Part shown: positions 7,100-51,744 of the stretch, piece by piece
How the letters are laid out: each line of letters begins with the position of its first letter
Position numbering within the stretch: the stretch's first letter is position 1
Source: a bacterium BMS3Bbin09
GTDB lineage: Bacteria > Nitrospirota > Thermodesulfovibrionia > UBA6902
DNA: 53,900 bases
Assembly (NCBI GenBank): GCA_002897915.1
Contig: BDTS01000041.1
Span: forward strand, 1-53,900
Direction: 5' to 3'
The notes under the pieces: model-generated
Told to the model about the DNA's origin: nothing
The model's database searches: none
What the model saw: only the letters and a program-made list of their open reading frames with translations
Position numbers and translations under genes: made by a program

Positions 7100-8329
7100 T
7101 TATATGGATGGCTGTATCTTCCTGAGCACAAGTACTGCGTTTGCCCCGCCGAAACCGAATGAATTCGTGATCGAGACCTCTATATCCCTGTTTATTGCCG
7201 AGGTTGCATAGTTCAGGTCACAATCCGGATCAGGTTCTTCAAGATTGATAGTTGGAGTGATGATTCCGTTGCTGATCGAAAGCGCTGTGACAGCGGTCTC
7301 TACCGCGCCAGCCGCGCCGAGCATATGCCCCAGCATGGATTTACATGAGCTTATTTGAATATTGCTGCTCTGTTCTCCGAATACTTTTTTGACCGCTTCC
7401 GTCTCCGCACTGTCTCCGAGTTTGGTCGATGTTGCGTGAGCGTTAATATAGTCAACCTCGTTGGTCCTGATGTTAGCGTCAACAAGGGCGTTTTGTATCG
7501 CCAGTACCTCGCCTTCACTGTTTGGCTGTGTCATGTGAAAGGCGTCGGAAGACATGCCGTAGCCGGAGATCTCAGCATATATCCTTACCCCCCGTTTCAA
7601 TGCGTGATCCAGTGACTCAAGGACAAGTATCCCGGCACCCTCGGCTATTACGAAGCCGTCCCGTTTATTATCAAAGGGCCTGCTCGCTTTTTCGGACTCG
7701 TGGTTTCTCTTCGAAAGGGAGCCGGAGGCGCCATAACCCCCGACAGCTATTCTACATATGGGCGCCTCTGAACCTCCCGCAATAACAATGTCGATGTCCG
7801 AGTGACGGATCATTCTTACGGCTTCGCCGATTGCATTCGTGCCTGAGGCACAGGCGGTTGATATGCCTAGAGAAGGGCCCTTTATACCGAATTTCATGGA
7901 TATATGAGAAGAGGCCATGTTGATCGTACTCGAAGACATCAAGTATGCGGAAAAAGGCCTGTTCTTCAATAGATGTTTCTCGAGCGCTGTTTCCAGGCTT
8001 GTTATTCCTCCACGGCTCGAGCCGACTACTACGCCCGCATTCCGTAAATCCCCGGAGGTCTTAAGCCCCGCGTCTTCCAGTGCCATGTCAGCGGCAGCGG
8101 TTGCATAATGTATAAAAGGATCCAGCCTCAGGATATCCTTCCTCGATATATAGCTTTCAGCGGAAAAACCCTTTAATTCACCAGCGATCCTGCTCGGAAG
8201 CCCTGAAGGGTCAAATCTTGTTATTTGACTTATGCCGGAACGTTTCTGGAGCAGGTTTTCCCATGTTTCCTGTATCGTGTTCCCGAGCGGGGTGACCGCT
8301 CCAATGCCTGTTATAACAACCTTTTTCAT
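7100..8329 (-). CDS. fabF: 3-oxoacyl-ACP synthase II (KAS II)
   Basis: The 409-residue protein matches the length of KAS II and holds the Cys-His-His triad: C160 in STACASGTNAIG, H298 in NAHATSTKLGD and H335 in SMLGHMLGAA. The glycine-rich C-terminal NSFGFGGANAVLVL is also present. It condenses malonyl-ACP with acyl-ACP in fatty-acid elongation in the cytoplasm. No acpP or fabG lies beside it; it faces the PAS gene and is divergent from moaC, so it is probably transcribed alone. A sister function in polyketide-like or specialised acyl chain synthesis cannot be excluded from sequence, but the motifs are those of the housekeeping enzyme. Confidence 0.95.
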   Translation of the reverse strand: MKKVVITGIGAVTPLGNTIQETWENLLQKRSGISQITRFDPSGLPSRIAGELKGFSAESYISRKDILRLDPFIHYATAAADMALEDAGLKTSGDLRNAGVVVGSSRGGITSLETALEKHLLKNRPFSAYLMSSSTINMASSHISMKFGIKGPSLGISTACASGTNAIGEAVRMIRHSDIDIVIAGGSEAPICRIAVGGYGASGSLSKRNHESEKASRPFDNKRDGFVIAEGAGILVLESLDHALKRGVRIYAEISGYGMSSDAFHMTQPNSEGEVLAIQNALVDANIRTNEVDYINAHATSTKLGDSAETEAVKKVFGEQSSNIQISSCKSMLGHMLGAAGAVETAVTALSISNGIITPTINLEEPDPDCDLNYATSAINRDIEVSITNSFGFGGANAVLVLRKIQPSI

Positions 8330-29760: not shown

Positions 29761-31134
29761 ATGGCAGAGTCAAAAGGAAAGATACTGGTTGTTGACGATG
29801 AGAAGAGCATGCGGGAGATCCTGCAGATCTTCCTCGAAAATGAGGGTTACAGCGTTTCAGTTGCCAGCAACGGTGCGGCGGCCATTGAGGACATTAAAAA
29901 GGATATATTTGATCTCATAATAACCGACATGAAAATGCCGAAGGCGAGCGGACTCGACCTTCTTAAGAGCACAAAGCAGGTCTCACCCGATACCATAGTG
30001 GTGATAATCACCGCCTTTGGCAACACCGATTCGGCAGTGGAGGCTATGAAGCTCGGGGCGTATGATTATCTTCAAAAGCCCTTTCAGATGGACGAGATCA
30101 GGCTGGTAGTAAAGAACGCCCTTGAAAAACAGGAGCTCAGGAAGGACGTTTCTGTTCTTAAGGAACAGTTGAAGCCTTATTCCCTTGAGAACATTATCGG
30201 TTCATGCCCCTCGATGCTCGAACTCTTCGATATGATAAACAGAACCTCTTCAAGCAGCGCCAATGTGCTCATCACGGGAGAGAGCGGAACTGGAAAGGAG
30301 CTTGTCGCAAGGGCAATACATAACCTCAGCCAGAGGAAGGATAAACGTTTTGTGGCCCTCAACTGCGCCGCGATCCCCGAGGGGCTGCTCGAGAGCGAGC
30401 TCTTTGGTTACATGAAGGGCGCGTTTACCGGGGCGGCGAATAACAAGGAGGGGATGTTCGAGCTTGCTAACGGAGGGACACTCTTCCTTGACGAAATAGG
30501 AGAGATGCCCGTAAGCCTCCAGGCAAAAATACTGAGGGTCATTGAAGGCGGCACGTTCCTGAGGGTCGGAGGAGTAAAAGAGATAAAGGGCGATGTAAGG
30601 CTGGTTGCTGCCACGCACAGGAAACTTGAGGATCTGATCGATGAAGGGACCTTCAGGGAGGACCTCTATTTCAGGCTTAACGTTCTCTTTGTAAAGATCC
30701 CGCCGCTGAGGGAACGTAAAGACGATATTCCGCTCCTGGTTGATCACTTCCTTGAAAAATTCAGCGGAGGCAAGATGCGATTTTCTGGTGACGCCGTCCG
30801 TATGATGAAGAACTATAAATGGAAGGGCAATGTAAGAGAGCTTGAGAATATTGTAGAGAGAGCTGTTCTGCTCTGCGATACGGAGATCATAGACATTGAC
30901 TACCTGTCTGACAAGATCCGTTCCGGGCCGGCTGCCGAGGCCGTGTCAGTGCCCCAGGGCGGTATTGATTTCGAAAAGATCATGGAGGATACGGAAAAGG
31001 CCTACCTCATCAAGGCTCTCGAGAAGACAAATGGTGTCATGACAGAGGCCGCTAAACTCCTCAATCTTTCCTTCAGGTCATTCCGGCATAAACTGAAGAA
31101 GTTCGGGATAGATAAAAAGAAGATTACGGATTAA
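29761..31134 (+). CDS. pilR: PilR-type sigma-54 response regulator
   Basis: The 457-residue protein has a receiver domain (1-120) with phosphoacceptor D56 in IITDMKMP and KPF near 107, a sigma-54 AAA+ domain with Walker A GESGTGKE (about 174), the sigma-54 contact loop GAFTGA (220-225), and a Fis-type helix-turn-helix at the C-terminus (TEAAKLLNLSFRSFRHKLKK). It follows pilS by 57 bases, with no strong ribosome-binding site. It should activate sigma-54 promoters, classically pilA. A strong sigma-54 promoter with enhancer-like dyads occurs at 50.1 kb before the Hsp20 genes, but whether PilR acts there is unknown. Confidence 0.93.
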   Translation: MAESKGKILVVDDEKSMREILQIFLENEGYSVSVASNGAAAIEDIKKDIFDLIITDMKMPKASGLDLLKSTKQVSPDTIVVIITAFGNTDSAVEAMKLGAYDYLQKPFQMDEIRLVVKNALEKQELRKDVSVLKEQLKPYSLENIIGSCPSMLELFDMINRTSSSSANVLITGESGTGKELVARAIHNLSQRKDKRFVALNCAAIPEGLLESELFGYMKGAFTGAANNKEGMFELANGGTLFLDEIGEMPVSLQAKILRVIEGGTFLRVGGVKEIKGDVRLVAATHRKLEDLIDEGTFREDLYFRLNVLFVKIPPLRERKDDIPLLVDHFLEKFSGGKMRFSGDAVRMMKNYKWKGNVRELENIVERAVLLCDTEIIDIDYLSDKIRSGPAAEAVSVPQGGIDFEKIMEDTEKAYLIKALEKTNGVMTEAAKLLNLSFRSFRHKLKKFGIDKKKITD

Positions 31135-46071: not shown

Positions 46072-46104
46072 ATTATATCACTTGATATGGTTTGTATCAA
46101 GTGA
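46072..46104 (-). promoter_or_regulatory. HAIR-overlapped promoter of dnaJ-hspR-clpB
   Basis: On the minus strand TTGATA (46100-46095) and TATAAT (46077-46072) are 17 bases apart, a near-perfect sigma-70 promoter. The inverted repeat TCACTTGATA-TGGTTTG-TATCAAGTGA (46078-46104) overlaps it; its core CTTGATA-N7-TATCAAG matches the known HAIR consensus CTTGAGT-N7-ACTCAAG in all but the inner positions. HspR bound there would block RNA polymerase. Confidence 0.88.
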
Positions 46105-50007: not shown

Positions 50008-50060
50008 CTATTTTTTTATCCCTTCCTTCAATACCAGAGCGTAACGGCTGTGCTCAAATG
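50008..50060 (-). pseudogene. Remnant of the lipoprotein 3' end
   Basis: Bases 50021-50060 are identical over 40 bases to 52835-52874, the end of the DUF2155-like lipoprotein gene. In frame the remnant reads FEHSRYALVLKEGIKK before a stop, against FEHSRYALVLKEGKKK in the intact gene. Similarity ends abruptly at the first UAS dyad of the Hsp20 promoter. About 126 bases, including a GCTGATAGCTGA-type repeat, separate it from the tRNA copy, versus 28 in the intact locus. Confidence 0.9.
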
Positions 50061-50115
50061 GACAAAATGGCCCATAGGACAAAAGATCATACAGTATTTG
50101 GGACATTTTGACCCA
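50058..50115 (+). promoter_or_regulatory. Two enhancer-like dyads upstream of the Hsp20 promoter
   Basis: ATGGACAAAATGGCCCAT (50058-50075) and TGGGACATTTTGACCCA (50099-50115) are inverted copies of one dyad; both fit TGGGNCA-N3-TGNCCCA, the first lacking one G. Centres are about 40 bases apart, near four helical turns, and lie roughly 115 and 74 bases upstream of the -12 element, the usual range for sigma-54 activators. Confidence 0.75.
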
Positions 50116-50167
50116 TTGAAAGACAATTGCTGGGCGTAATTTCTTGTAAAAAAATAAATTTAAATTC

Positions 50168-50184
50168 TGGCATTCGGTTTGCTA
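50168..50184 (+). promoter_or_regulatory. Sigma-54 promoter of the Hsp20 operon
   Basis: TGGCATTCGGTTTGCTA fits TGGCAY-N5-TTGCW, with GG and GC exactly ten bases apart. The start would fall near 50194, giving a leader of about 137 bases to the first Hsp20 gene. Confidence 0.8.
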
Positions 50185-50280
50185 ATAGGGGAATAGATTG
50201 ACAGATGATGTTTTAGGTGATAGATAGGTGATAGATAGTTGTTAAACAGCTGTTGATTATGAATTCAAAAAAACATAACA

Positions 50281-50301
50281 ACCCGGTTGTAAATACCGGG
50301 T
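50281..50301 (+). other. Hairpin in the Hsp20 leader
   Basis: ACCCGGT, loop TGTAAAT, ACCGGGT: a perfect 7-pair stem 30 bases before the first Hsp20 start. It ends 14 bases before the ribosome-binding site, so it does not cover it as a ROSE-type thermometer would; it may stabilise the mRNA. Confidence 0.5.
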
Positions 50302-50331
50302 AATCTTTCAATGAAAAGGAGGGTGATGCAA

Positions 50332-50757
50332 ATGTTATGGAATAACAATTCAAACTGGTTCTGGGATCCATGGGATGAATTTGACAGGATGCGGCAGTCT
50401 CTGTCAAGGGACTCATTCCGCCATTCATCGGGATTTCCTGCGATCAATACGTGGGTCTCATCTGATGATTCCGTTGTAACAACCGAGATACCGGGCGTGG
50501 ACCCGGCGAACATTGATATCTCTGTTGTCGGAAGGACTGTGACGCTGCGGGGTTCCCGCAGGGCTGATGAACTTCAGGAAGATGAGTCATATCATCGCAG
50601 AGAGAGGTGGAGCGGAGAATTTTCCAAGGCAATTGAACTTCCATTTAACATTGAAGCGGATAAAGTTACAGCAAAGTTCAATAACGGAGTTCTTTACCTG
50701 ACTCTGCCGAAGGCAGAAGCAGAAAAACCGAGAAAGATCGAAATTAAATCCAGCTAA
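50332..50757 (+). CDS. Small heat-shock protein (Hsp20), first of three
   Basis: The start is the ATG at 50332, 9 bases after AAGGAGG; earlier ATGs lie within the ribosome-binding site. The 141-residue product has a short N-terminal arm (WNNNSNWFWDPWDEFDRM), an alpha-crystallin domain (about 42-135) with ITEIPGVDPANIDISV-like strands and NGVLYLTLPKAE, and a C-terminal EIKSS tail. It prevents aggregation of unfolding proteins in the cytoplasm. It leads a three-gene operon under a sigma-54 promoter. Confidence 0.94.
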   Translation: MLWNNNSNWFWDPWDEFDRMRQSLSRDSFRHSSGFPAINTWVSSDDSVVTTEIPGVDPANIDISVVGRTVTLRGSRRADELQEDESYHRRERWSGEFSKAIELPFNIEADKVTAKFNNGVLYLTLPKAEAEKPRKIEIKSS

Positions 50758-50770
50758 GGAGGTGATGTCA

Positions 50771-51175
50771 ATGGAAACAACGACAAAAGATGTTCAGAAA
50801 CAAGAGGCAGCGGCCAAAGAAGGAGTTGAACGGACAAGGTCAAAGAGGCTGTACGTCCCGCCTGTTGATATCATAGAAGGCAGGGATGGTCTGGTTCTTG
50901 TAGCCGATATGCCCGGAGTGGACGAGAATTCGGTTGATATTACGCTTGAGAAGAATTTACTGACAATTTACGGAACCGTTGAACCTGAAATTCCGAGAGG
51001 ACACAGGATGATCTCCTCTGAATACGGCATAGGAGATTATCAGCGTACGTTCATACTGTCCGATGAGATCGATGGAGGAAAGATAGAAGCAACAGTCAAG
51101 AACGGTGTGTTGAGATTAACTCTTCCCAAGGCTGAGGCTGCAAAGACCCGGAAGATTCCGGTTCAAGCCGAATAA
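50771..51175 (+). CDS. Small heat-shock protein (Hsp20), second of three
   Basis: The start is the ATG at 50771, 8 bases after AAGGAGG that overlaps the previous gene's stop region. The 134-residue protein has an N-terminal Ala/Lys/Glu-rich arm (METTTKDVQKQEAAAKE), unlike the first copy, and the alpha-crystallin domain (VADMPGVDENSVDITL, NGVLRLTLPKAEA). The GVLRLTLPKA motif is shared with copy one, but the arm differs, so it may co-assemble as a distinct subunit. 18 bases separate its stop from the next start. Confidence 0.93.
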   Translation: METTTKDVQKQEAAAKEGVERTRSKRLYVPPVDIIEGRDGLVLVADMPGVDENSVDITLEKNLLTIYGTVEPEIPRGHRMISSEYGIGDYQRTFILSDEIDGGKIEATVKNGVLRLTLPKAEAAKTRKIPVQAE

Positions 51176-51193: not shown

Positions 51194-51688
51194 ATGACAT
51201 GGAAAGATATTGTACCCTTTAAAAAAAGAAGTGTACCTGTCAGGAGAGAAAGCGGACATCCTTTTGAGAGGTTACATGGTGAAATGGATACACTCTTTGA
51301 AGACTTTTTCAGAGATTTCAGCATGGAACCTTTTGAAGGTCGTTACGCGGGATCGTTCAGTCCGAACATTGATGTAGCTGAAACTGATAAGGAAATAAAG
51401 ATATCAGCTGAGCTGCCCGGCATGGACGAAAAGGAAATAGAGGTGAACGTTAACAATGATTCTATCACCATCAGGGGTGAGAAGAAAGAAGAAAAAGAGG
51501 ACAAGGGCAAAGACTATTACCATGTAGAACGCTCGTATGGATCGTTCAGCCGCACAATTCCGCTTCCTGCTGAGATCGAGAGCGACAAGGCTCAAGCACA
51601 TTTCAAAAAAGGCGTTCTGACAGTCAAGATCCCTAAGAGCGCGAAGTCGATAGAGTCGAAGAAGAAGATAGAGATAAAGACTGAGTAG
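51194..51688 (+). CDS. Small heat-shock protein (Hsp20), third of three
   Basis: The start is the ATG at 51194 after AAAAGGAGG. The 164-residue protein has an N-terminal arm with phenylalanine-rich FERLHGEMDTLFEDFFRDF, an alpha-crystallin domain (ISAELPGMDEKEIEVNV, KGVLTVKIPKS) and a longer Lys/Glu tail. It is the canonical class A-like member (HPFERLH...LFEDFF start). Terminated by the hairpin at 51703. Confidence 0.94.
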   Translation: MTWKDIVPFKKRSVPVRRESGHPFERLHGEMDTLFEDFFRDFSMEPFEGRYAGSFSPNIDVAETDKEIKISAELPGMDEKEIEVNVNNDSITIRGEKKEEKEDKGKDYYHVERSYGSFSRTIPLPAEIESDKAQAHFKKGVLTVKIPKSAKSIESKKKIEIKTE

Positions 51689-51702: not shown

Positions 51703-51744
51703 AAGGTAAGCGGAGGGCATGTCTTCCGCTTACCTTTCTTTTTT
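51703..51744. terminator. Intrinsic terminator between the Hsp20 operon and patatin gene
   Basis: AAGGTAAGCGGA and TCCGCTTACCTT form a 12-pair perfect stem, followed by TCTTTTTT on the plus strand. It serves the plus-strand Hsp20 operon; symmetric enough to limit minus-strand read-through as well. Confidence 0.92.

Follow-up and report, generated by a model that had tools for sequence, protein, structure and literature searches.

We propose that the hsp20ABC operon of the bacterium BMS3Bbin09 (assembly GCA_002897915.1, contig BDTS01000041.1) belongs to a dedicated sigma-54 chaperone regulon that has at least two targets and is switched by its own activator of the bEBP type; on the sequence evidence we put the probability of this reading at roughly 0.8. 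The operon lies in what we call the window, the whole stretch of DNA analysed here (positions 1 to 53,900 of the contig, 53,900 nucleotides), and its features are collected in Table 1. That the Hsp20 genes would be under enhancer-type sigma-54 control was the original prediction, and it is now strongly supported by a promoter and dyads whose fixed spacing is conserved among relatives, by the recurrence of this architecture before a second target, dnaK2, and by the presence, directly 5′ of the operon in relatives, of an activator gene whose product has lost the phospho-acceptor Asp of its receiver-like domain.

The match of the promoter to the -24/-12 consensus, with GG-N10-GC, had been recognised beforehand and is exact; the hsp20A transcript is predicted to start near 50194. 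The pattern TGGCAY-N5-TTGC occurs in exact form once in the window, at this site, and 14 times genome-wide (the reversed control pattern gives 2), and at up to one mismatch the window holds 7 sites against 5.85 expected, which is chance level. Since a lone -24/-12 match is without significance, the sigma-54 case rests on conservation. The genome does encode rpoN (PF04552 at C78, E 2.7e-58). The start codon chosen for hsp20A is backed by orthologs with the N-termini MLW or MLF, and the Hsp20 operon, which had been drawn so as to cover its first gene only, comprises three Hsp20 genes and runs to 51688. In the hsp20 leader, shortly 5′ of the Shine-Dalgarno sequence, lies a perfect 7-bp hairpin (ACCCGGT-TGTAAAT-ACCGGGT, 50281-50301). 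An RNA thermometer in this leader was considered and rejected, there being no Rfam match, leader hairpin included.

Table 1. Features of the hsp20ABC locus and of the other stress circuits (window positions, except for the contig C27 entry; negative distances are from the -24 TGG).
Feature	Position	Strand	Remarks
Distal dyad ATGGACAAAATGGCCCA	50058-50074	.	ATGGACA-AAA-TGGCCCA; same position (-107 to -109) in relatives
Distal core GGACAAAATGGCC	50060-50072		108 bp 5′ of -24 TGG
Degenerate middle site GGACAAAAGATCA	50077-50089	.	At -91; left half-site intact; full dyad in relatives
Proximal dyad TGGGACATTTTGACCCA	50099-50115	.	TGGGACA-TTT-TGACCCA, perfect; core 50101-50113, at -67
IHF-like element TAATTTCTTGTAA	50137-50149	+	Begins exactly 31 bp 5′ of -24 TGG
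Sigma-54 -24/-12 promoter TGGCATTCGGTTTGCTA	50168-50184	+	GG-N10-GC exact; conserved in orthologs
Shine-Dalgarno of hsp20A	50316-50322	+	AAGGAGG
hsp20A (small heat-shock protein, MLWNNNSNW...)	50332-50757	+	Pfam HSP20 6e-22
hsp20B	50771-51175	+	Pfam HSP20 5e-18
hsp20C	51194-51688	+	Pfam HSP20 3e-24
Terminator-like hairpin with T-run	51703-51736	+	3′ of hsp20C
HAIR-like dyad CTTGATA-N7-TATCAAG	46081-46101		5′ of dnaJ-hspR-clpB (minus strand)
Perfect CIRCE	C27:14302-14328 (L216:6303)		Before hrcA-grpE-dnaK1-dnaJ

Both the distal and the proximal dyad contain the core GGNCA-N3-TGNCC exactly (from 50060 and 50101). The motif first proposed for them, TGGGNCA-N3-TGNCCCA, fits the proximal dyad without exception, whereas the distal one departs from it at two positions. 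The distances given for them were right: the dyad centres lie 115 and 74 bp from -12 and are 41 bp apart, and these four helical turns arise from steps of 17 and 25 bp with a worn middle site between them, the window belonging to the -67 register and keeping an intact dyad at -108 (distal) and at -67 (proximal) but one half-site in the middle. The window holds 5 copies of the core where 0.68 would be expected; genome-wide there are 43, while a reversed control gives 29. As a genome-wide marker the 17-bp motif was rejected (46 sites against 36 in the control at up to two mismatches), and because it is too loose at two mismatches we changed the marker to the core together with its pairing. A loose dyad at C43:12447 was dismissed, lying as it does inside another hsp20 gene.

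Orthologs of hsp20A were taken from related genomes, the public Nitrospirae bin JdFR-81 among them, and the whole promoter architecture is kept in 26 other orthologs of the same family, with a -24/-12 element of nearly full score and between one and three dyads, each with at most one mismatch; nearly all hsp20 operon orthologs of the family have this promoter, and an array of three sites is its usual form. Measured from the -24 TGG, the dyads stand at -66/-67 or -77, at -91/-92 or -102, and at -108 or -119/-120, with the middle dyad 25 bp 5′ of the proximal and the distal another 17 bp 5′, so defining two registers that are 10-11 bp, or one helical turn, apart. Exact dyads reach 2.76 per kb in the hsp20 and dnaK2 promoter regions of the family, against 0.006 in shuffles. 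A periodicity of 10.5 bp across all dyad positions was weak (R about 0.4-0.5) and not specific to 10.5: whole turns separate only the two registers (10-11 bp) and the outer dyads (41-42 bp), and steps of 17 and 25 bp do not correspond to whole turns, which accounts for the weak signal.

The IHF-like element has the consensus YAAC-N4-TGAWA, and 28 of the 42 related promoters have YAAY at -31, whereas at no other position do more than 5 have it. A search for IHF sites by best score alone separates real from shuffled sequences weakly (mean 7.5 versus 6.8), and it is the fixed -31 position that stands out. Four HU/IHF-type genes are present in the genome.

Dyads of this kind can serve as repressor operators, and in 54 kb a -24/-12 match with one mismatch should turn up by chance, so one might suppose that a repressor of the heat-shock type acts here, that the -24/-12 element is coincidental and that a sigma-70 promoter is used. 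We hold this to be very improbable: GGC and TTG are present in 42 of the 42 related promoters, making the -24/-12 element nearly invariant; its distance from the dyads is fixed, and the dyads lie well upstream and do not overlap it; and a scan of 50015-50332 found no sigma-70-type promoter. Nor are the operators of known heat-shock repressors seen upstream of hsp20A, with no CIRCE anywhere in the window and no HAIR-type dyad near 50058-50332. That the elements merely resemble functional ones by chance has a negligible probability, for although either element alone occurs elsewhere by chance, their conservation and co-occurrence in dozens of genomes already refute it. The promoter is absent from the Hsp20 relatives of a Deltaproteobacteria bin (L032) and an Anaerolineae bin (L033). 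At two loci from other families of the class (L061 and L063), hsp20A-like genes have a -24/-12-like element and no dyads; these may possibly be under sigma-54 control through another activator.

Sigma-54 control by way of these dyads would extend to a second chaperone operon. Among the 43 core dyads of the genome, close pairs occur in only two places, both 5′ of sigma-54 promoters of chaperone operons: the window, and C101:7122-7159, where the promoter (C101:7214) is at the same distance from the pair as in the window and is followed by a 62-residue ORF and then by a second dnaK gene, dnaK2. About 1e-4 such paired-dyad/promoter sites would be expected, as estimated from 43 dyads and 14 promoters. 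The original prediction had proposed looking for dyad pairs before sigma-54 promoters across the genome, and had named a random scatter of dyads as the outcome that would count against it; what we find is pairs restricted to two chaperone promoters. Our scan of the genome for the regulon was pattern-based, and degenerate sites may escape it. The 62-residue ORF (C101 about 7263-7451, L123) is kept between the sigma-54 promoter and dnaK2 in several relatives.

Of the two dnaK genes in the genome, dnaK2 has the sigma-54 promoter and dnaK1 lies in hrcA-grpE-dnaK1-dnaJ. The same division is seen in relatives, with a sigma-54 promoter, mostly accompanied by dyads, before 15 of the 17 best dnaK2-type genes (≥83% identity) and before none of the lower-identity dnaK genes examined. 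In the two exceptions (G001 and G022, of genus g2) dnaK2 is directly 3′ of the hsp20 genes on the same strand, and therefore forms part of the hsp20 operon. A strict promoter-plus-dyad pattern gave 24 matches in 17 of 60 genomes, all of the same family, and the reversed control gave 0; 12 matches are before hsp20A and 9 before dnaK2, with one before a glycosyltransferase-debranching enzyme operon, one before a transporter gene near a bEBP gene, and one that looks like a chance match. The pair encoding a glycosyltransferase and an amylo-1,6-glucosidase has its sigma-54/dyad promoter at L217 (G004:C106) and is found 3′ of hsp20C in JdFR-81 (L031); carbohydrate stores could possibly be linked to stress through these two genes.

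The earlier suggestion of a dedicated or shared sigma-54 activator can now be given a candidate by name. In 15 genomes of the family (JdFR-81 and 14 others) a bEBP gene of about 470 residues is directly 5′ of the hsp20A operon, and the dyads fall between hsp20A and the stop codon of the bEBP gene or, in a few genomes, the final codons of that gene. The BMS3Bbin09 ortholog, at C23:22569-23981, is unlinked to the hsp20 operon. The protein has an N-terminal receiver-like domain, an AAA+ domain (PF00158, 5e-68; GAFTGA loop and Walker A GDTGTGKE in L086) and a Fis-type HTH (PF02954, 6.5e-15). A phylum-wide search located distant families of the class, and in some of these (f14, f16, f17) the order bEBP, dyads, hsp20 genes recurs, with dyads at about -119, -102 and either -78 or -67 before the sigma-54 site at several loci. 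Within the family the bEBP is present in 23 of the 27 genomes with hsp20A and in 4 of the 10 without it (Fisher p 0.012, a value that overstates independence because the compared genomes are related); the operon occurs without a close bEBP ortholog in four MAGs that are 78-92% complete (G002, G003, G004 and G025).

The BMS3Bbin09 genome holds about nine further bEBPs, some ten in all, and one of these, for example of NtrC or PspF type, might instead be shared with the hsp20 promoter and bind the dyads, leaving the candidate with another role. Such an arrangement would fit with the unlinked position of the candidate in BMS3Bbin09 and with the few genomes that have bEBP or operon alone, but we consider it unlikely: the candidate gene is immediately 5′ of the operon, with the dyads in between, in many relatives and several families; the strict pattern has no match outside the family; and the dyad recurs at most loci that pair the candidate bEBP with hsp20. 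Our preferred reading remains that the candidate bEBP is the one that would bind the GGNCA-N3-TGNCC dyads. Autoregulation of its gene was rejected, as no sigma-54 site lies 5′ of it and a lone dyad is seen there in two sister genomes only. The window itself carries another bEBP gene (30193-30690), with an intact receiver and no visible relation to the hsp20 operon. Stretches 3′ of the bEBP gene that look near-identical occur at L097 (G028:C182) and L110 (G010:C316), in genomes assigned to different genera; cross-contamination of bins is a possible cause.

The candidate bEBP does not have the phospho-acceptor Asp of a classical response regulator. Aligned to NtrC1 (PDB 4l4u), the BMS3Bbin09 protein has Thr57 at this position, and every same-family ortholog whose sequence covers this residue carries Ala, Ser or Thr there. 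A structure model, used solely for the order of receiver secondary structure given its moderate confidence (mean pLDDT 70), shows a receiver-type beta-alpha order with residue 57 ending beta-3. In the distant families 5 receivers retain the Asp and others carry Ser, Ala, Glu, Gly, Val or Ile in its place, a pattern suggesting that phosphorylation was lost more than once. With the phospho-acceptor missing, histidine kinase input is unlikely in the family, and switching probably depends on a ligand, on a partner protein or on how abundant the activator is. In JdFR-81, genes for a histidine kinase, a receiver and a receiver-PAS-GGDEF protein lie directly 5′ of the bEBP gene (L031:1688-5840), so that c-di-GMP or a partner receiver may also provide the input. 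The AAA+ bEBPs FleQ and VpsR have atypical receivers and control motility or biofilm genes via c-di-GMP; they resemble the candidate, whose receiver-like domain probably works without phosphorylation as theirs do, and differ from it in their targets. We also raise, as a speculation that we would not bet on, that a chaperone of the regulon itself (DnaK2 or Hsp20) holds the pseudo-receiver inactive and frees it when titrated by unfolded protein; were this so, the bEBP would be a master regulator of the chaperones that acts independently of phosphorylation, and its circuit would parallel, for sigma-54, the feedback loops of DnaK with sigma-32 and with HspR.

In the mechanism that we propose, the bEBP would occupy the GGNCA-N3-TGNCC dyads, two or three of them, that precede the -24/-12 promoter. 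With a dimer on each of three dyads, a hexamer would be nucleated, which an IHF-like bend at -31 would allow to meet sigma-54 RNA polymerase; ATP hydrolysis would then open the promoters of the hsp20ABC operon and dnaK2. The signal is presumably protein-folding stress, and that the operon is induced by heat or stress is our assumption from its gene products. There is a likeness to the NorR-norVW system of E. coli, in which a bEBP likewise activates a sigma-54 promoter from three upstream enhancer sites, these being essential and forming a scaffold for oligomers, according to PMC2941729 (citing Tucker et al. 2010); NorR, however, responds to nitric oxide via a GAF domain and serves NO detoxification, in contrast to the receiver-like domain and chaperone genes found here.

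The sigma-54 regulon would operate beside two other stress circuits. Coexistence of two circuits had been suggested, and the HspR part stands, the HAIR-like dyad in the window fitting HspR control of dnaJ-hspR-clpB; the count, however, becomes three, because dnaK1 sits in a CIRCE/HrcA operon. We thus distinguish HrcA/CIRCE (dnaK1), HspR (dnaJ-hspR-clpB) and sigma-54 (hsp20ABC and dnaK2).

Heat-shock control in bacteria is described mainly via sigma-32, HrcA, HspR and a few others. An NtrC-type regulator, in the HsfA/HsfB system, is said to activate lonD through a classical His-Asp phosphorelay, and shares with the system described here an NtrC-type regulator and a heat-shock gene; the phosphorelay and the Lon protease target set it apart from our Asp-less family with its Hsp20 and DnaK targets. 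For ibpAB of E. coli we know of no dedicated enhancer array or linked activator, and these genes are sigma-32-transcribed too. The heat-shock gene lonD of Myxococcus xanthus is placed under HsfA/HsfB in a passage of PMC9548883 (citing Ueki and Inouye 2002), and ibpB, a small heat-shock gene that would share its sigma-54 input with the hsp20 operon, is reported as sigma-54-transcribed (PMC4370416). In Bacteroidota and Planctomycetota, too, chaperone genes such as grpE and groES have been predicted or reported to be under sigma-54 (PMC12316311); these are other phyla, the sections of that paper concerned give no activator or enhancer motif for the chaperone genes, and Nitrospirota goes unmentioned in the paper. 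The sigma-54 regulome of D. vulgaris includes stress regulons, with no Hsp20 or DnaK target in the searched parts of PMC4641369. Individual cases of chaperone genes under sigma-54 are thus on record, and an hsp20/dnaK2 regulon with a dedicated activator appears to be undescribed in the open-access literature, where we found no description of it; most subscription papers fall outside that search.

With the usual route of phosphorylation closed to the receiver in this family, how folding stress is sensed becomes a directly testable question. The promoter array, in its two registers one helical turn apart, provides a natural series for the study of enhancer spacing and IHF bending. Across an entire class of bacteria, most of them uncultured, the Hsp20s and a second DnaK appear to be run by an all-or-none, ATP-driven sigma-54 switch with an activator of its own.
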